Assembly: GCF_012184385.1 (NCBI RefSeq)
Contig: NZ_VSRL01000017.1
Coordinates: forward strand, 1-64,000
Length of the DNA: 64,000 bases
Direction: 5' to 3'
DNA from: Lentzea indica
Lineage (GTDB): Bacteria > Actinomycetota > Actinomycetes > Mycobacteriales > Pseudonocardiaceae
The notes beneath the pieces are model-generated. The model saw only the letters and a list, made by a program, of their open reading frames with translations. It did no database searches and had not been told where the DNA came from. The position numbers and the translations under genes are program-made. This document shows positions 3,950-40,851 of the stretch, piece by piece (position 1 is the first letter of the stretch; every line of letters begins with the position of its first letter).

Positions 3950-4846
3950 ATGACAGTGCACCCTGTCGAGCGCGTGCTGCGCCGTCGCCAGCGGCTCTGG
4001 ATCTACCTGGCGATGGCAGGACTCGCCGTCTTCTTCCTGTTCCCGTTGGTGTTCATGTTCGTCTCCAGCCTGAAGCCCGACGGCCAGATCCTGTCCGACG
4101 TCGGCGGCTGGCGTGCGTTCCTGCCGCTCGGCGACATCAGCTTCCGCAACTACTCCGGGGTGTTCGACCGGGTGCCGGTCGGCCGGTTCCTGCTCAACTC
4201 GTTGTTCGTCACGACGGTCATCGTGGGCGCTGGGCTCGTGATCAACTCCATGGCGGGGTTCGCGATCTCCCGGTTGCGCTGGACCGGCCGCGGCGTGGTC
4301 CTGAGCATCATCATCGCCACCCTGATCGTGCCGTTCGAGACGATCGCGGTGCCGATGGTCTACTGGGTCTCGCAGCTGCCGACCCTGCTGTTGCAGAACG
4401 GGCAGCTCGTCTACGACTTCGGCTGGCTGGACTCGTACGAGGTGCAGATCGTCCCGTTCATCGCCAACGGCTTCTCGGTCTTCCTGTTCGCCCAGTACTT
4501 CTCGACCATTCCGACCGCGATCGACGAGGCGGCGCGGATCGACGGCGCGGGCTGGTTCACCATCTACCGGAAGATCGCCGTCCCGTTGTCGGGACCGGCG
4601 TTCGCCACGGTCGCGATCCTGACCTTCCTGCCTGCCTGGAACCAGTACCTGTGGCCCAGCATGGTCGTCCAGGACGAGAACCTGCGGCCGGTCATGGTCG
4701 GCATGCAGTATTTCTTCCAGGACAACACGGCGTGGGGCGAGATCATGGCCTACACGTCGATGATCACGCTGCCGGTGCTCGTGGTGTTCCTCGCCTTCCA
4801 ACGTGCTTTCGTCAGCAGCGTCGCCGCGAGCGGTGTAAAGGGCTGA
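3950..4846 (+). CDS. ABC sugar permease, MalG/UgpE type
   Basis: This 298-aa permease has about six transmembrane helices and the EAA motif (DEAARIDGAGWFTIYRKIAVP) typical of the MalG/UgpE partner subunit. It begins 3 bp after the MalF-type stop, indicating translational coupling in one transcript with the binding protein. Together they form a CUT1-type importer for oligosaccharides. The ATP-hydrolysing subunit is not encoded here. Specificity for fructans is inferred from the two GH32-type enzymes that follow. Confidence 0.92.
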   Translation: MTVHPVERVLRRRQRLWIYLAMAGLAVFFLFPLVFMFVSSLKPDGQILSDVGGWRAFLPLGDISFRNYSGVFDRVPVGRFLLNSLFVTTVIVGAGLVINSMAGFAISRLRWTGRGVVLSIIIATLIVPFETIAVPMVYWVSQLPTLLLQNGQLVYDFGWLDSYEVQIVPFIANGFSVFLFAQYFSTIPTAIDEAARIDGAGWFTIYRKIAVPLSGPAFATVAILTFLPAWNQYLWPSMVVQDENLRPVMVGMQYFFQDNTAWGEIMAYTSMITLPVLVVFLAFQRAFVSSVAASGVKG

Positions 4847-33621: not shown

Positions 33622-35478
33622 CTACAGAAGCCCGTTGAGCCGGACGAACAGCGCCTGGAAGCGCAGACGGGAGGGCTCGTCGACCTCGTCGGGAAGCGTG
33701 CCGGGCGAGCGCATGAGGTGGTTTGCCGGTTGGTAGTGGTCGTAGCGGTGACCGAGTACGGCCTCCACCTGCTTAACGATTCGGCCGCCACCGCTGAGCT
33801 GGGACGGCGTGAAGGTGCCCACCCCGGACTCCTTCAGCAGCTTTAGGTACCAGTCGACCTCGAAGAGGTCCTCGATGTCGGCTTCGCCGGTGCCGGTCAC
33901 CTCGGTCAGGTGGACCAGCCGCTTCGTGTCGATGAGGCCCTTGGACGCCAGTTGGGCGATGCGCTGGTTGCCGTTGGCCGCGACGTCCATCAGCACGGCC
34001 ACGTTCAGGTCACTGCCGCCCAGCAGGGACACGAATGCCGGCACCTTGTCGAGCCCGCCGACGGGTGTGATCGTCCACTGCGGGTCGAGGGGTGTGCCTC
34101 CGGCTTGCCGGACGACCTCGCTCATCACGGTCAGGTACACGACGTCCGATGGGCCCTCGACGAGCAGTTGGTGCGGGCTGATCACGAGCGTCTGCGTCAT
34201 GTCGACACCGATGGCGCCGAGCAAGGGGAAGACCGTGTCGGCACGGGCAGCCCACACGTTGTCGCTCACCTTGGTGCCCTCATCGCCGACATCCTCGACG
34301 GTGCGGCACCGGTCGAGCTTGTTCTTTTGGATCATGAACAAGGAATGGGTGGTGTAGATGACCTGGTGGTGGGGCGCCAGCCGGTCTTCGATGTAGCGCA
34401 GCAGGTCGTCCTGAGCCTTCGCGTGGAGATTCAGTCCCGGCTCGTCGAGCAGGATGATCCTGCGGGCAGTGCCCGAGCCGAACTCGGAGAAGGCCGCGAG
34501 GAACGAGAAGAACCACAGGAAGCCCTTCGACCGCCCCTCGACCGGCAGGGTCACCCGATGCCGCTGGTTCTTGATCCGGACGTGCAGCCATGGCTCGCGG
34601 TGCGGTGGGTTCTGCGGGTTTGGCCTGAACTCGATGTCGAGCTCGACGGTCAGGTCCGGGTTCTGGGTCCAGTACTCGAGCAGCTGGTCGGTGAGCTCGT
34701 TGGCTGCGGCCTCGAGGGCGGCCTTGCGGCTCTCGTAGGACTCTTCAGTGAACTCGGCGGTGTCCACCCCGGCGAGACGCAGGAGCGAGAGCGCAGTGCG
34801 TTCCTCGGGACGCAGGTCGCGCTCGGGAACTTGCTGCAGCCGGTCGATCGAGACGGTTCCCGGCAGCACGTTGTACTCGTCGAAGTACTGGAACTGGGGC
34901 ATTCGTGCTTCGAGCAGGCCCCAAGCCTCCTCCTCGAGCGTTCGGCCGCCGAGGTTGTCAGCCACGGTCACGGCTGCCTCGGCAGCGGTGTCCGCGCGGA
35001 GAGCGTCAACAAGTTCCGTGACGGTGGTCGCCGCCGCGTAGGGACTGGGATCGAGGCCCGCTTTGGCGACTAGATGGCGTGCCGCCGCCAGTTCATCGAA
35101 GAAGGCGATGCGGTACAGCTTGGAGTCGTTGTACTTGCGGTACAAGGTGATCCGCTCACTAGTCAGCGCTTCAGGCCCAAGAACCTCGGTGACCGCCGTG
35201 ACATCGTCCGCGTCGAGCTGGAAAGTCATCCTGATGGGCTGAGCCGTGGAGATCTTGTCTTTGTCGCGCGACCGGTAGCGCCGAGGGTAGTCCCGTAGGT
35301 CCTCGAACGTGGTGATGTGTCCGCTCGACAACGGGTTGAGGCGGTACAAGGCCTCGAGCACGGCGGTCTTTCCGGACTCGTTCTTACCGACAAGAGCGGT
35401 GACGTCGCTGTTCAGCGTGAACTCGGTTGAGTCCGTGGCGCTCTTGAAGGTGGCGACGCGGGCAGACAGCAGCTGCAT
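33622..35478 (-). CDS. OLD-family ATPase/TOPRIM endonuclease (solitary)
   Basis: The 618-aa protein begins with an ABC/SMC-type ATPase: Walker A GKNESGKT at residues 31-38, signature-like VEGRSKGFLW near 313-322, and Walker B LLDEPG at 343-348, followed by TTHS. It ends with a TOPRIM nuclease domain (LLVEGPSDVVYL, ~438-449, and VLMDVAANG). This is the overcoming-lysogenization-defect architecture shared with GajA. No GajB/UvrD helicase or reverse transcriptase gene is adjacent, so it is best called a class 1-like solitary OLD nuclease with a probable anti-phage role. It is co-oriented with the CBASS operon, 310 bp downstream of its effector. Confidence 0.87.
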   Translation of the reverse strand: MQLLSARVATFKSATDSTEFTLNSDVTALVGKNESGKTAVLEALYRLNPLSSGHITTFEDLRDYPRRYRSRDKDKISTAQPIRMTFQLDADDVTAVTEVLGPEALTSERITLYRKYNDSKLYRIAFFDELAAARHLVAKAGLDPSPYAAATTVTELVDALRADTAAEAAVTVADNLGGRTLEEEAWGLLEARMPQFQYFDEYNVLPGTVSIDRLQQVPERDLRPEERTALSLLRLAGVDTAEFTEESYESRKAALEAAANELTDQLLEYWTQNPDLTVELDIEFRPNPQNPPHREPWLHVRIKNQRHRVTLPVEGRSKGFLWFFSFLAAFSEFGSGTARRIILLDEPGLNLHAKAQDDLLRYIEDRLAPHHQVIYTTHSLFMIQKNKLDRCRTVEDVGDEGTKVSDNVWAARADTVFPLLGAIGVDMTQTLVISPHQLLVEGPSDVVYLTVMSEVVRQAGGTPLDPQWTITPVGGLDKVPAFVSLLGGSDLNVAVLMDVAANGNQRIAQLASKGLIDTKRLVHLTEVTGTGEADIEDLFEVDWYLKLLKESGVGTFTPSQLSGGGRIVKQVEAVLGHRYDHYQPANHLMRSPGTLPDEVDEPSRLRFQALFVRLNGLL

Positions 35479-35787: not shown

Positions 35788-36756
35788 CTACGTAGGTGGA
35801 GTCGTGTGTTCAGCGAGTCGGGCACGGTGGCCTTCGGCTGTGTCGCCGAAGTCCCGCTCGTCGTCATCGCGGAAGCGCTTGTAGAACCACTCGGGCACTC
35901 GGGTGGGTTCGAGGCGTGTGCGGAACACGCCGTCCTGCACGTCGCGGGCCACGCCGCGCAGGCGATGCCACTCGTCCTCGGGGATGAGGCCGGGGCGCGC
36001 GTTGCGCAGTTCGGCGAGGACGAGCTTTCCCAGGTGTTCGCGTTCGTCTGCGACCTTGCGCTGTCCGGACCAGATCTCGTACGCGATCTGAAACGCGGCG
36101 AGCGAGGGAACGAAGAAGCTGAGCAGCGTGTCCAAGAGGGTGACGTTCGGGACGATCAGACAGATGACCACACCGAGGACGGTCCACGCGGCCGCCCCCC
36201 AGGCCACGAAACGGCTGTAGCGCCGACGTAGTCTCGCGTCCCAGGCGAGGTTCTGTTCCTGGGAAATGAAGATGTCGTAGGGATGGTGGACCCCGGTGGT
36301 GGGGTCGTACCAGCCGCCGGTGATGCGGCCATCCTTCTCACCACCAACCGGGAGTTTGCGCGCCAGCAGACGAACGTCCTGCTCGGGGATGCGGTCACCA
36401 GCCACAGTGGACCGCCACGGCAGGTCGAACAGGGCGGTGTCGAACATCTCCTGGAGAGTCGCACCCTCCTTGGCCGTGCGCGCGGCTTTGCTTTTGAGCC
36501 ACAACACGGACAAGAGGAACGAGGCCACGCCGATCACGGACATGATCGCCCGGCCGTGGCCGATCAGGGTGACCAGGACGCCGCCGAGGGCGATGATGAT
36601 CGGAGCGTTGACCCGCATGGCTTCCAGGCGTTGTCCTACAACGTGGCTTGCCGCCGCCGCTCGTTGCACGAGCACCATGTCGTCGTCGAGCTGACGCTCG
36701 TGGATCGCGCGGGGCGGCACGCCTCGGAAACCCTCGGGGTTGGTGGCGAGGTTCAC
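35788..36756 (-). CDS. CBASS effector: S-4TM-family pore-forming membrane protein
   Basis: GTG 36756 overlaps the CD-NTase stop by 4 bp (GTGA); the open frame beyond it is a shadow. The 322-aa protein has two pairs of helices (APIIIALGGVLVTLIG / IMSVIGVASFLLSVLWL and FVAWGAAAWTVLGVVICLIV / LLDTLLSFFVPSLAAFQIAY). They are separated by a cytoplasmic stretch with LQEMFDTALFDLPWRS and YDIFISQEQNLAWD, the pattern of S-4TM putative pore-forming effectors. It should open or disrupt the membrane when it senses the cyclic nucleotide made by the adjacent CD-NTase. Role follows family knowledge and operon position; ligand unknown. Confidence 0.82.
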   Translation of the reverse strand: MNLATNPEGFRGVPPRAIHERQLDDDMVLVQRAAAASHVVGQRLEAMRVNAPIIIALGGVLVTLIGHGRAIMSVIGVASFLLSVLWLKSKAARTAKEGATLQEMFDTALFDLPWRSTVAGDRIPEQDVRLLARKLPVGGEKDGRITGGWYDPTTGVHHPYDIFISQEQNLAWDARLRRRYSRFVAWGAAAWTVLGVVICLIVPNVTLLDTLLSFFVPSLAAFQIAYEIWSGQRKVADEREHLGKLVLAELRNARPGLIPEDEWHRLRGVARDVQDGVFRTRLEPTRVPEWFYKRFRDDDERDFGDTAEGHRARLAEHTTPPT

Positions 36757-37619
36757 GGCCTGGTCATCCTGTTCCCGAACAGCTTCTTCCACTCGTCGTA
36801 GGCGGCGCGTTCCTCGCCGTCGTCCTCCAGATCCACCGCTCGTTCGGCGATGGCGCGGGCTCCGTCGAGCGAGGACGCCGCGGCGATCTTCTCGCTGATG
36901 GTCATGACGCCGTTGACGTCGCCGCCCAGTTCGGCCGGATCCTGCCACTCGTCGTGGATGCGCTCCGCGGCGGTGGCCAGGAAGAGCACGATCTCGTCCT
37001 GATACCGGCCGAACGGCGTCTTCACCAGGGACATGGCCATGACCTCGAGCAGGAACGAGGGCGACACCGGCTCACCGAGCTCGCGGTTGATACCCTTGAT
37101 CATCTTCACGAACGGCACGTACTTGCCGTCGCAGTCGGAGTTCTTCGCGATGCTGAGCTCGTGGTGAACCTTGGGGTTGGTCGCGATCCAGCTCCCGGCG
37201 GAGGGGTCGGGAATGAAGTAGCCACCGTCCTCGCGCTTGAAGGCGGGGACCACATCGACCGACATGACCTCGTCGTCGGACCCGTAGGGGATCACGACAG
37301 CCATCCCGTCCTGCTCGGCGGCGCCCCACTTCTCCTGGAGGAGCCTTTCCAGGGCGTCGATGACCTGGTTGGGGCTTTGGTTTCGATACCCGGCCTGTGC
37401 GCCGTCTGCGTCCAGGACGACGAAGATGTCGACATCCTTAAGCTTCTTCGTCTTGGTGTCGCGCCGGTAGCTGCCGGTCAGGAAGTCGTCGGCGAGGTCC
37501 CAGTGCGACCTGACGAAGTCGCGAATGGCCACGTGGCGTGACGCCGCCTGTATCTGCTCGGTCGTGGTGATCTCGAGGTTGTGCTTCAGGTTGACGAAGG
37601 CGTCGTCGACGTAACCCAT
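36753..37619 (-). CDS. CBASS CD-NTase (SMODS-type cyclic oligonucleotide synthase)
   Basis: The 288-aa protein has the nucleotidyltransferase motif GSYRRDT with G49/S50, the catalytic acids D62 and D64 (KDVDIFVVLD) and the third acid D122 (SVDVVPAF). A helical C-terminal domain contains PFVKMIKGINRELGEPVSP and SFLLEVMAM. It should make a cyclic di- or trinucleotide alarm signal on phage infection. It lies between the HORMA gene (15 bp upstream) and the effector (overlapping downstream). Association with HORMA and TRIP13 suggests clade C or D, but the clade cannot be fixed by eye. Confidence 0.93.
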   Translation of the reverse strand: MGYVDDAFVNLKHNLEITTTEQIQAASRHVAIRDFVRSHWDLADDFLTGSYRRDTKTKKLKDVDIFVVLDADGAQAGYRNQSPNQVIDALERLLQEKWGAAEQDGMAVVIPYGSDDEVMSVDVVPAFKREDGGYFIPDPSAGSWIATNPKVHHELSIAKNSDCDGKYVPFVKMIKGINRELGEPVSPSFLLEVMAMSLVKTPFGRYQDEIVLFLATAAERIHDEWQDPAELGGDVNGVMTISEKIAAASSLDGARAIAERAVDLEDDGEERAAYDEWKKLFGNRMTRP

Positions 37620-37634
37620 GTCCGTGTCCCGATT

Positions 37635-38138
37635 TCAGTTGTAGAGGTAGCGCATGCCGGCGGAGGCGTGTGGCGCCGAGCCGAGGGTGCCGAAGGCGAT
37701 GCTGCGCAGACCCTGGGTTCCGGCGAGCTGTCCGGTGCCCCAGCCCGGTTGCGGTGTGCGGGGCTTCTTGAAGGTGCAGAAGAGCTGGAAGGTGGTGCCT
37801 GCCGGCACGCGGTCGAGCTTGGCCAGGAACCGGGCCAGGCGTGCCTGGGAGGCGGTGAACGCGGCGTCGCCGTCCCCGGAAGCGTGGTAGGAGACCGGGA
37901 ACTCGATCATCGGTGCCACGATGCCCGAGGGCTGGTGGCACTCGACCACGACGGAGCCGAGGGACTCCTCGATGATCCACGCCTTGATGGCGTTCTCGGT
38001 GATCACCCAGTCGCGCGTCAAGCTGGCGGTGTTGATCCCGAGGTCCGCGAGGATGCCTGAAATCGTGCCGAGAATGACGTCGGTCAGGTGGGTCGCGGTG
38101 TGCGTACGGGTGTAGCTGTAGGTGTGGGTTGACGTCAT
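37635..38138 (-). CDS. cap7: CBASS HORMA-domain protein (Cap7-like)
   Basis: The 167-aa protein matches the bacterial HORMA-1 pattern. It has an N-terminal THTYSYTRTHTATHLTDVIL helix, DWVITENAIKAWIIEESL, VVVECHQPSG, GDAAFTASQARLARF and the C-terminal safety-belt end LRSIAFGTLGSAPHASAGMR. In type III CBASS the closed HORMA binds and activates the CD-NTase, and the TRIP13-like ATPase disassembles the complex. Its ATG overlaps the upstream gene stop (ATGA). Assignment is strong from motif and context. Confidence 0.88.
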   Translation of the reverse strand: MTSTHTYSYTRTHTATHLTDVILGTISGILADLGINTASLTRDWVITENAIKAWIIEESLGSVVVECHQPSGIVAPMIEFPVSYHASGDGDAAFTASQARLARFLAKLDRVPAGTTFQLFCTFKKPRTPQPGWGTGQLAGTQGLRSIAFGTLGSAPHASAGMRYLYN

Positions 38139-38614
38139 CGCTGCTGCACCGCCCGTCGCAGGGCTTCGCGATCGATCAGAGGACCGGCACTCGCCGACTT
38201 GGCCTCAGCAGCCGGCGCAGTTTCGTCGGACAACCGGGCGTGGGCGTCGGCTGCGGCCTTCACCTGCTCCTGCAGCGGGACTGGCGAAGGCAGATAGATC
38301 ATGAAGCTGTCGGCGTCAGCCGCACCGGGCACGGGGTTGAGGTTCTCCTCCAAGGTCAATGCCGCCGTGCCCGACACCGTCGTGATCTCGCAGTGCACCT
38401 TGCCGGCGACCAATGTGACCGGGTGCCGCCGCAGATGCCCTCCCGCGACCAACATTCGGCCGACCGGCTCGGCCGCTGCCATGGCTTGAGCTGCTTCCTC
38501 GCGGGACAGCCCCGCGGATTGCGCCACTGTGTCCGCCACGAGGTCCGTGATCACGGTCCAGGTGGCACTGGCGCTACGTACCGGAGCTGCCGCGATCTCC
38601 CTAGTCCGGCGCAC
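38135..38614 (-). CDS. CBASS accessory protein, candidate second HORMA/closure-motif partner
   Basis: The 159-aa protein starts at GTG 38614, inside the end of the TRIP13-like gene, and overlaps the HORMA gene by 4 bp. It has a helical N-terminus (SATWTVITDLVADTVAQSAG), a beta-rich middle (GHLRRHPVTLVAGKVHCEIT, FMIYLPSPVP) and a charged, low-complexity C-terminal tail. Type III CBASS operons often encode a second HORMA-like protein (Cap8) or a peptide donor at this place. I cannot confirm the fold from sequence, so the role is inferred from position only. Confidence 0.65.
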   Translation of the reverse strand: MRRTREIAAAPVRSASATWTVITDLVADTVAQSAGLSREEAAQAMAAAEPVGRMLVAGGHLRRHPVTLVAGKVHCEITTVSGTAALTLEENLNPVPGAADADSFMIYLPSPVPLQEQVKAAADAHARLSDETAPAAEAKSASAGPLIDREALRRAVQQR

Positions 38615-39506
38615 TGGTCACCTCCTGCTGGTCGATTTCCGCGACCGCGTTGCGGACCGCGAGTGACAGGTCGTGTTCGGTGAGGCTCTCGGGGTCGAGG
38701 ACGGTGTCCAGCCGTTGGGCCATGGCCTCGAAAACCGCTTTGCGAGCGCGTCGGCCGTCCAGCCCGCGAGCGGTTTCGGCGATGCGGCCGATCGCGGGGG
38801 AGGTCGCCAGTTCCCCGAGGCCCGGGTAGATGTCCACGAGGGCGAGCAGCGTTCCGGCGAAGATCTCCCGCAACGCCTCCGGCTCGGGCAGAGGTACGAG
38901 GATCGCCGCGTCGGAACGTGAGAGGAACGCGTCGTCGAGCGCCGAGGTGAAGTTGCTGGTCGCGACGAAGAACAGGTGTGGGTGCGCCGTGGCGTTGTGG
39001 TCCAGGGCGGTGAGTACGGCGTCGGTGGCGCGGTGGACGTCGGCCGGGTTGGCTGACAGCGAGGCCGCAGATCGGGCAACCGCCATCGACTCGACTTCGT
39101 CCAGGATCACCACCGTCGCCATGCCGTCCGCGGCGAGGCCGGGCACGTATTCGCCGAGGAGCTCGCTGACCCGTTGCTGCGACTGCCCGTGCTCGGCACT
39201 CATCAGCCCGTGAGGGTTGATCTCGATCCTTCGGACCCTGCGTCCGGGAACGTACTGGGCGACCTGCGCGGGAAGTCCTCGCGCGAGGGTCGTCTTGCCG
39301 GTGCCGGGTAGGCCGTACAGCGTGCACAGCCCGTGCAAGGCCGTAACGGTGAACGGCAGCTCAGGGCGGACCAGCAGCGACAGCAGGGTCTGGTTGCGGA
39401 GCCGCTCCTTGACGCTCATTGGCGTCACGATGGCATCCCACAAGGCGTTCTCGGCCGAGTCGGCACCGATCACGTCGTCCGACAGCACGCACTCCTGAAC
39501 CTTCAA
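38601..39506 (-). CDS. cap6: CBASS TRIP13/Pch2-like AAA+ ATPase (Cap6-like)
   Basis: The 301-aa AAA+ protein has Walker A GLPGTGKT (65-72), the Pch2-type INPHGLMSAEHGQSQQRV, Walker B VVILDEVES (D136, E137) followed by the TRIP13-like AVARSAASLSANPADVHRAT, and a sensor/Arg-finger region ATSNFTSALDDAFLSRSDAA. TRIP13-like ATPases remodel HORMA proteins to reset CD-NTase activity. It is the first gene of the operon, starting at TTG 39506 after GGAG. Promoter in the 230-bp divergent gap shared with the HTH/ImmA gene. Confidence 0.9.
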   Translation of the reverse strand: MKVQECVLSDDVIGADSAENALWDAIVTPMSVKERLRNQTLLSLLVRPELPFTVTALHGLCTLYGLPGTGKTTLARGLPAQVAQYVPGRRVRRIEINPHGLMSAEHGQSQQRVSELLGEYVPGLAADGMATVVILDEVESMAVARSAASLSANPADVHRATDAVLTALDHNATAHPHLFFVATSNFTSALDDAFLSRSDAAILVPLPEPEALREIFAGTLLALVDIYPGLGELATSPAIGRIAETARGLDGRRARKAVFEAMAQRLDTVLDPESLTEHDLSLAVRNAVAEIDQQEVTSAPD

Positions 39507-39735: not shown

Positions 39736-40851
39736 GTGAGCGACTGGCAGCTGGACTCCGGCGACATCGCGGCCCTGTTCGACAGGGCACGGCTGCGGCT
39801 CGCACGTGAACTCCGGGGGCTGAGTCAAGTGCAGCTGGCCAAGGAGGCTGGTTCCGTCACCGCGGCCTCGATCAGCCAGTTCGAGAACGGGCACACAAAA
39901 CCCGCATCGTCGACAATGCACCGGCTCGCGGTCGCGCTACGGGTGCCCCTGGCCTTTTTCGCGGCTCCGGCTCGCCCTCCGGCGCAGGAAGAGATCAACG
40001 GGTACTTCCGTAGTCTCAGATCCACCGCCCCCAAGGACCGTCAGCAAGCGCTGGCCCACGTTCATCTCGCGCGGGAACTGACGCTCGAACTCGAGAAGTA
40101 CGTCCGGTTGCCCGAGCTCAACGTGCCGAGGTTCCCCGCGACGGAAGATCAGCCGCTCAGCAGTGCCGATGTCGTGCAGGCCGCGGCGCGGGTGCGCAGC
40201 TACTGGAACGTGCCGCGGGGTCCTGTTGCAGATGTAGTGAGGTTGCTGGAGCAGAACGGCGTTGTCGTCGCCCGATTCCGCGTCAGCATTGAGAAGGTCG
40301 ATGCGTTCTGCGTCGACTTCCCGGATCGGCCGGTGGTGGCGCTCGGGGCGGACAAGGGTCTTCGTGACCGTTCGCGGTTCGACGCGGCTCACGAGTTGGG
40401 TCATCTCGTTCTTCATGGTGCGGACGGCCCGGTAGCCGACAAGGCGACCGAGTCGCAGGCCAACGAGTTCGCAGCGGCGTTCCTCATGCCGGCCGAAGAC
40501 ATAGCGCACGAGCTCCCCGCTCGTCTCGACTGGCCGACGCTGCTTCGCCTGAAGGCCAAGTGGCACGTCTCGCTGGCCGCTCTCCTGGTCAGGGCGAAGA
40601 CGCTCGGTGTCATGAGCGACCACGTCTACGCGCAAGCGTGGAAAGCCTTGTCGGTGCGAGGATGGCGGAAGGTGGAACCTGGTCCTCTGGGCGCCCCCGA
40701 GGCTCCAGTCCTCCTGCAACGCGCCATCGAGGTGATGGAAACAACCGGGGTCTCGTTTGCCGAGTTCATCTGGAGATCCGGCCTTCCAGAAGCGGATGTC
40801 CGCGCGCTGCTTAACCGTGACATTAGCGAGCGGCCGCGCGTGGAGTTCTGA
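39736..40851 (+). CDS. XRE HTH-ImmA/IrrE metallopeptidase fusion, likely CBASS regulator
   Basis: The 371-aa protein has an N-terminal XRE helix-turn-helix (LRGLSQVQLAKEAGSVTAAS, ~26-45). A COG2856-type peptidase domain follows, with HELGH (H219-H223) in DAAHELGHLVLHG and the downstream ESQANEFAAAFLMP zinc ligand. GTG start after GGAGACG. Separate HTH (CapH) and ImmA-like (CapP) proteins are known to control CBASS in response to DNA damage; here both activities are in one chain, divergent to the operon. A general stress regulator is the alternative. Confidence 0.85.
   Translation: MSDWQLDSGDIAALFDRARLRLARELRGLSQVQLAKEAGSVTAASISQFENGHTKPASSTMHRLAVALRVPLAFFAAPARPPAQEEINGYFRSLRSTAPKDRQQALAHVHLARELTLELEKYVRLPELNVPRFPATEDQPLSSADVVQAAARVRSYWNVPRGPVADVVRLLEQNGVVVARFRVSIEKVDAFCVDFPDRPVVALGADKGLRDRSRFDAAHELGHLVLHGADGPVADKATESQANEFAAAFLMPAEDIAHELPARLDWPTLLRLKAKWHVSLAALLVRAKTLGVMSDHVYAQAWKALSVRGWRKVEPGPLGAPEAPVLLQRAIEVMETTGVSFAEFIWRSGLPEADVRALLNRDISERPRVEF

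Follow-up and report, generated by a model that had tools for sequence, protein, structure and literature searches.

HORMA1 of an actinobacterial two-HORMA type III CBASS operon in Lentzea indica and the candidate closure motif in its C-terminal tail

Genes of the CBASS operon

The 64,000-nucleotide stretch of Lentzea indica DNA analyzed here (the window) contains a minus-strand operon with the gene order TRIP13, HORMA1, HORMA2, CD-NTase, and 4TM effector. The first gene (38601..39506, minus strand) encodes a TRIP13/Pch2-like AAA+ ATPase, Cap6, of 301 aa when read from the TTG that we used as its start codon; it matched the PADLOC TRIP13 model with E = 5.8e-121. The gene for HORMA1, the second HORMA protein (38135..38614, minus strand), starts with GTG and specifies 159 residues; its assignment draws on the ORF itself, PADLOC, a sequence profile, and an AlphaFold (AF2) model with fold searches. 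It is followed by the gene for HORMA2 (37635..38138, minus strand; 167 aa), which is of the peptide-clasping type based on matches to Pfam bacHORMA_2 (3.2e-17) and PDB entry 6P8S_A (1.7e-12) and on the belt strands of its model. Further downstream, a 288-aa CD-NTase (36753..37619, minus strand) was recognized as a CdnD-like oligonucleotide cyclase using Pfam SMODS (7.1e-23) and 6P8U_A, a CdnD (E = 6.9e-47). The last gene (35788..36756, minus strand) encodes a membrane effector of the S-4TM type, which has 322 aa with the chosen GTG as its start and matches Pfam S_4TM (3.4e-71) and PADLOC 4TM (1.1e-160). The window therefore holds TRIP13, HORMA2, and CD-NTase genes, the set by which a two-HORMA operon was recognized. 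By our own reading, the HORMA1 gene is of the Cap8 type. PMC10002423 names cap6, cap7, and cap8, although cap8 is said there to encode two HORMA domains.

An earlier note on this DNA had described a 159-aa ORF that overlaps both of its neighbors. Indeed, the HORMA1 ORF shares 14 nt with the TRIP13 ORF and 4 nt, ATGA, with the 167-aa HORMA2 ORF. Both overlaps recur among the 26 HORMA1 loci described below, the former being 14 nt in 24 loci and the latter 4 nt in 20, using start codons picked by script. For residues 6-128, dN/dS was ~0.21 among 15 close sequences, and given this purifying selection the ORF is not fortuitous.

Divergent from the operon is a plus-strand gene (39736..40851) for an XRE helix-turn-helix protein fused to an ImmA/IrrE peptidase (Pfam HTH_3 and Peptidase_M78). 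This fusion gene is present in each of the 14 close loci (L005-L018); of the 10 others, one gave a weak match. Its product is likely a regulator of the expression of the CBASS operon. It resembles a fused form of CapH and CapP, a DNA-damage-responsive controller described in PMC13373217. At the other end, the operon adjoins a gene (33622-35478, minus strand) for an AAA_15/OLD-like ATPase, in which a TOPRIM match fell below threshold. Among 24 loci, searched at E ≤ 1e-5 with flanks of up to 6 kb, a relative of this ATPase was found in L005 only; it is thus probably an accessory neighbor.

Relatives in genomes, plasmids, and phages

A species-genome collection was scanned with an alignment of three TRIP13 sequences, yielding 188 pattern matches and 24 loci that encode a relative. 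TRIP13, HORMA1, HORMA2, and the cyclase occur in this order in all 24, a figure that describes this TRIP13 subfamily and not type III CBASS at large because the bait operons had been found through HORMA1. A detectable 4TM relative is present in 23 of these loci. By our assignment, 23 loci belong to Actinomycetota; the remaining one is from a MAG labelled Acidobacteria. The window is close to Lentzea waywayandensis, whose TRIP13 is 91% identical to that of the window. With HORMA2 as bait, four genomes were retrieved from the 394 of the class, the window's own among them, and each of the four has a HORMA1 gene in the same gene order. Occurrence was sparse in other searches as well. HORMA1 itself was found in 2 of 60 relatives. 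Of two PADLOC HORMA models, PDLC00885 was found in two genomes of the genus (24 searched) and PDLC00881 in two of the phylum (396 searched); each of these three counts includes the window's genome.

The HORMA1 set used in the analyses below comprised 26 rows. Rows L001, L004, and L029 were left out as they are the window itself, as were L002, L003, L030, and L032, which, judging from equal identities, are apparently the same loci as L005, L027, L013, and L026. L007 and L008 have the same HORMA1 sequence, which leaves 25 distinct sequences among the 26 rows; both rows were counted throughout.

Searches of plasmids with HORMA2 returned one Rhodococcus and one Polaromonas record. Queried next, the HORMA1 of Polaromonas hit 11 plasmid records, its own among them. 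Nine of these were examined; all are from Pseudomonadota, and all nine loci have TRIP13, HORMA1, HORMA2, and the cyclase in this order. In 10 plasmid records, every annotated copy of the HORMA1 gene (8/8, Rhodococcus included) is labelled "hypothetical protein," and two records are unannotated at this position. Routine annotation accordingly overlooks a protein for which a structure has been solved. Scans of viral contigs with HORMA2 and HORMA1 alignments returned zero relatives, phage records contained zero relatives, and a library of viral structures had no match at E ≤ 0.001.

Three features of the plasmid loci are of separate interest. In the Rhodococcus opacus plasmid (L034:4465-4947), HORMA1 is annotated from position 4645, and its open frame extends from 4465 (160 aa). 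Read from 4465, the gene shares 14 nt with the annotated AAA gene, like the other loci, and the annotation probably places its start too far downstream. In the Polaromonas plasmid, the cyclase gene is followed, in place of 4TM, by a gene for a DUF6602 protein (L033:6374-7138; E = 1.4e-32), possibly an uncharacterized CBASS effector. Finally, two Rhizobium plasmids carry a small DUF2188 gene before TRIP13 and in the same direction (L036:140-376 and L037:141-377), in both cases at a two-HORMA operon.

Family and fold of HORMA1

The 159-aa protein can be identified with near certainty as HORMA1, here in an actinobacterial form, from a two-HORMA type III CBASS operon. The earlier note had found no family for it. 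This does not hold, as the PADLOC-DB "HORMA" model PDLC00885 matches the protein over its full length (E = 1.6e-89) and the structure of a homolog has been solved. The second PADLOC model, PDLC00881, matched the window HORMA1 with E = 3.7e-6, and both models matched all 26 HORMA1 relatives at a limit of E ≤ 1, the best value being 3.3e-97. Searches of Pfam and NCBIfam with HORMA1 yielded nothing significant; in Pfam, this included PF18173 (bacHORMA_2), which was not matched. Models of DNA polymerase II DP2 appeared in these searches (E = 0.043 in Pfam and 0.24 in NCBIfam) and were rejected, being under the curated cut-offs and covering ~33 residues.

The relationship to proteins of known structure emerged from a profile. 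Using phmmer, the single HORMA1 sequence returned from the PDB four cadherin matches only, with E ≥ 1.1; the profile was therefore needed. Built from the 26 HORMA1 sequences, it matched 6p8p_A (E = 2.8e-9) and 6p8s_C, which is named HORMA1 (1.2e-8), with the next match at 0.054. Both chains are from Pseudomonas aeruginosa, and sequence profile and fold together show that HORMA1 is homologous to P. aeruginosa HORMA1.

The AF2 model of HORMA1 has a mean pLDDT of 90.9. In VIA-align, it superimposed on 6p8p_A with Z 17.0 and an rmsd of 2.1 over 124 residues, and on 6p8s_C with Z 16.8 and an rmsd of 2.1 over 123. The HORMA core was also evident in alignments with HORMA2-deltaC (Z 9.2, rmsd 2.9, 112 residues) and with a Mad2 dimer (Z 7.5, rmsd 3.8, 120 residues), the latter being weak by itself. 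Foldseek gave four matches at E ≤ 0.001, all of them P. aeruginosa HORMA1 chains (6p8s_C, 1.0e-7). A confident fold unrelated to HORMA had been named in advance as an outcome that would count against a HORMA assignment; prediction of HORMA1 alone gave a confident HORMA fold. The suggestion of a divergent second HORMA is borne out by the profile match (E = 2.8e-9), the fold (Z = 17.0), and the PADLOC models in 26/26 relatives, and an unrelated new family is ruled out by profile and fold, which both point to HORMA1.

The HORMA-like core comprises residues 1-133 (38216..38614, minus strand), aligned to residues 3-134 of 6P8P. The model has strands at 2-8, 66-70, 73-80, and 105-107 and helices at 15-30, 38-47, 49-57, and 112-124. 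The "beta-rich middle" of the earlier note was thus right as to the presence of strands, but the model is a mixed α/β structure. Beyond residue 124 are a two-residue strand (128-129), a region of low confidence around residues 139-145, and a helix of modest confidence (149-158); strands of at least three residues are absent beyond residue 107 in this one predicted state. By contrast, the HORMA2 model (mean pLDDT 80.5), which aligned to P. aeruginosa HORMA2 (6p8r_C) with Z 22.9 and an rmsd of 1.9 over 160 residues, has two long C-terminal strands, 145-154 and 158-166, at the position of the safety belt. Based on the one predicted state, we read HORMA1 as a HORMA core that lacks a functional safety belt. 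Since belt-length C-terminal strands are missing from that state, we do not class it as a canonical peptide-clasping HORMA.

The C-terminal tail and a possible role for HORMA1

The core is followed by a variable flexible linker, residues 134-144 (38183..38215, minus strand), characterized by low pLDDT and higher dN/dS, and then by a conserved motif, residues 145-155 (38150..38182, minus strand), a candidate closure motif. Mean pLDDT in successive blocks from residue 131 was 73, 54, and 74, with values below 50 at residues 139-145. The tail is flexible and contains charged residues, in agreement with the disordered charged tail described previously. Among the 15 close sequences, dN/dS was 0.21 for residues 6-128, 0.38 for 129-144, 0.18 for 145-155, and 0.41 for 156-158. 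HORMA1 accordingly has a flexible end that bears a short, conserved motif, the feature by which a closure-motif donor was to be recognized.

Over the 26 HORMA1 rows, the conserved motif columns included D148 (26/26), L152 (24/26), I147 (22/26), and A151 (22/26). The motif, [ILV]-D-x-x-[AG]-[LF], is common to Actinomycetota and Pseudomonadota. When one Rhodococcus and nine proteobacterial HORMA1 sequences were added to the 26 rows to give 36 tails, the D column held D in 34 sequences and N in two. The pattern [ILVM]-D-x-x-[AGSR]-[LFVM] occurred within the last 20 residues of 32/36 tails, including 7/9 of the proteobacterial ones; the tails lacking the strict pattern were those of L014, L017, L037, and L042. 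In 1000 rounds of shuffling, the average number of pattern carriers was 0.48 and the maximum 3, a control that is a description and not an independent test, as the pattern was composed after the tails, including that of P. aeruginosa, had been viewed. In the alignment, the P. aeruginosa HORMA1 tail shows the same pattern. It looks disordered in 6p8p_A too, where 132/156 residues are modelled, up to residue 134.

From these sequence features, it is somewhat probable that the HORMA1 tail is a closure motif clasped by HORMA2, so that the closure-motif donor proposed in the earlier note is plausible as well. PMC9122588 lists a "Type III (2-HORMA)" class and states that the cyclase of type III CBASS is controlled by HORMA proteins and TRIP13 via HORMA-peptide binding. 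According to PMC10419184, operons with HORMA2 and HORMA3 need no dsDNA; the numbering there is unlike the HORMA1/HORMA2 numbering of the PDB. As for a physical complex between HORMA1 and HORMA2, the one source of support is the P. aeruginosa entry 6P8S, by analogy with which the window proteins may associate. According to its title and chain length, this "HORMA1:HORMA2:Peptide 1 complex" contains a HORMA1 chain of 133 residues, without the tail, and a separate peptide. As the chain has no tail, it is the HORMA1 core that contacts HORMA2 in this entry.

We favor, with moderate confidence, a model of two-HORMA type III CBASS in which HORMA1 acts as the carrier of a tethered closure peptide. The HORMA1 core would dock onto HORMA2, and its flexible tail would present [ILV]DxxAL for HORMA2 to clasp. 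Clasping would stabilize the closed form of HORMA2, which could then bind and license the cyclase; the resulting cyclic oligonucleotide would open the 4TM pore and the infected cell would be killed. TRIP13 would strip HORMA2, thereby holding the system off or resetting it. Counting against this model are the tail-less HORMA1 chain and the separate peptide of 6P8S, as well as the four tails that lack the strict pattern. A permanently tethered closure motif alone also leaves phage sensing unexplained.

Other roles for HORMA1 were weighed against the same data. In the manner of p31comet, it might be an adaptor whose core presents closed HORMA2 to TRIP13 and whose tail contacts TRIP13 or the cyclase, not the belt. 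The tail-less P. aeruginosa core complexed with HORMA2 and peptide in 6P8S would suit such a role, as would the match of the fold to Mad2 dimer entries (Z 7.5) and the 14-nt TRIP13 overlap in 24/26 loci, which suggests coupled translation. In eukaryotes, however, the adaptor is bound by the N-terminal domain of TRIP13. The alignment of the window TRIP13 to eukaryotic TRIP13/Pch2 in the PDB starts at query residue 20 and chain residue 134, and the open frame offers ~30 more residues upstream at most; it thus has no room for this domain. In addition, the complex of the single-HORMA system of E. coli MS115-1, HORMA:CdnC:Trip13 (6P8V), has no second HORMA in its title, and an adaptor role alone leaves the conserved motif at the extreme C-terminus unexplained. 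On balance, we consider the adaptor role unlikely.

That HORMA1 senses phage directly, by clasping a phage peptide and having HORMA2 relay the signal, would be in keeping with its HORMA core and its presence in every two-HORMA operon examined. Yet where the HORMA2 model has two long C-terminal strands, the HORMA1 model shows, past residue 107, only helix 112-124 and a strand of two residues, and the PDB entry of a CdnD:HORMA2:Peptide 1 complex names P. aeruginosa HORMA2, not HORMA1. Lacking a belt, HORMA1 is very unlikely to be such a sensor. The conservation of the tail is equally compatible with an inhibitory placeholder that, in uninfected cells, occupies the HORMA2 belt and keeps the cyclase off until a phage peptide displaces it. 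Such an arrangement would let a tethered ligand and control by phage coexist; however, the present data are neutral as to whether the tail activates or inhibits, and we give this reading little credence.

If the motif is indeed clasped by HORMA2, the question of what throws the switch moves from which phage peptide is bound to how tail binding and TRIP13 stripping are controlled. More tentatively, two-HORMA CBASS may possess a built-in closure peptide, carried by a belt-less HORMA and conserved across phyla, with which the operon itself loads HORMA2; phage might then alter loading or TRIP13 stripping and supply no peptide. HORMA1 is an already known kind of protein, whose identification clears one "unknown" from a defence operon; the tail hypothesis is a testable addition, for which the C-terminal motif provides one specific site.

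The operon is an actinobacterial counterpart of the two-HORMA system of P. aeruginosa ATCC 27853. Its HORMA1 shares with that of P. aeruginosa (6P8P, 6P8S) the fold, the partners HORMA2 and CdnD, and the tail pattern, although the two are ~18-20% identical in fold alignments and the P. aeruginosa motif ends LD..GF.K whereas the window motif ends ID..AL.R. The systems also differ in that the window operon is actinobacterial and has a 4TM protein as effector, the P. aeruginosa effector presumably being NucC. With HORMA2 and bacHORMA_2 (PF18173), HORMA1 has in common the HORMA core (Z 9.2 for HORMA2-deltaC) but not the two long C-terminal strands of the HORMA2 model. The fold is likewise that of Mad2 (Z 7.5), p31comet, and the meiotic HORMADs, but HORMA1 has a reduced belt and 7% identity to Mad2, and it would work on a cyclase and not on checkpoint proteins. 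The layout of HORMA1 recalls that of the meiotic HORMADs, which combine a HORMA core with a C-terminal closure motif.
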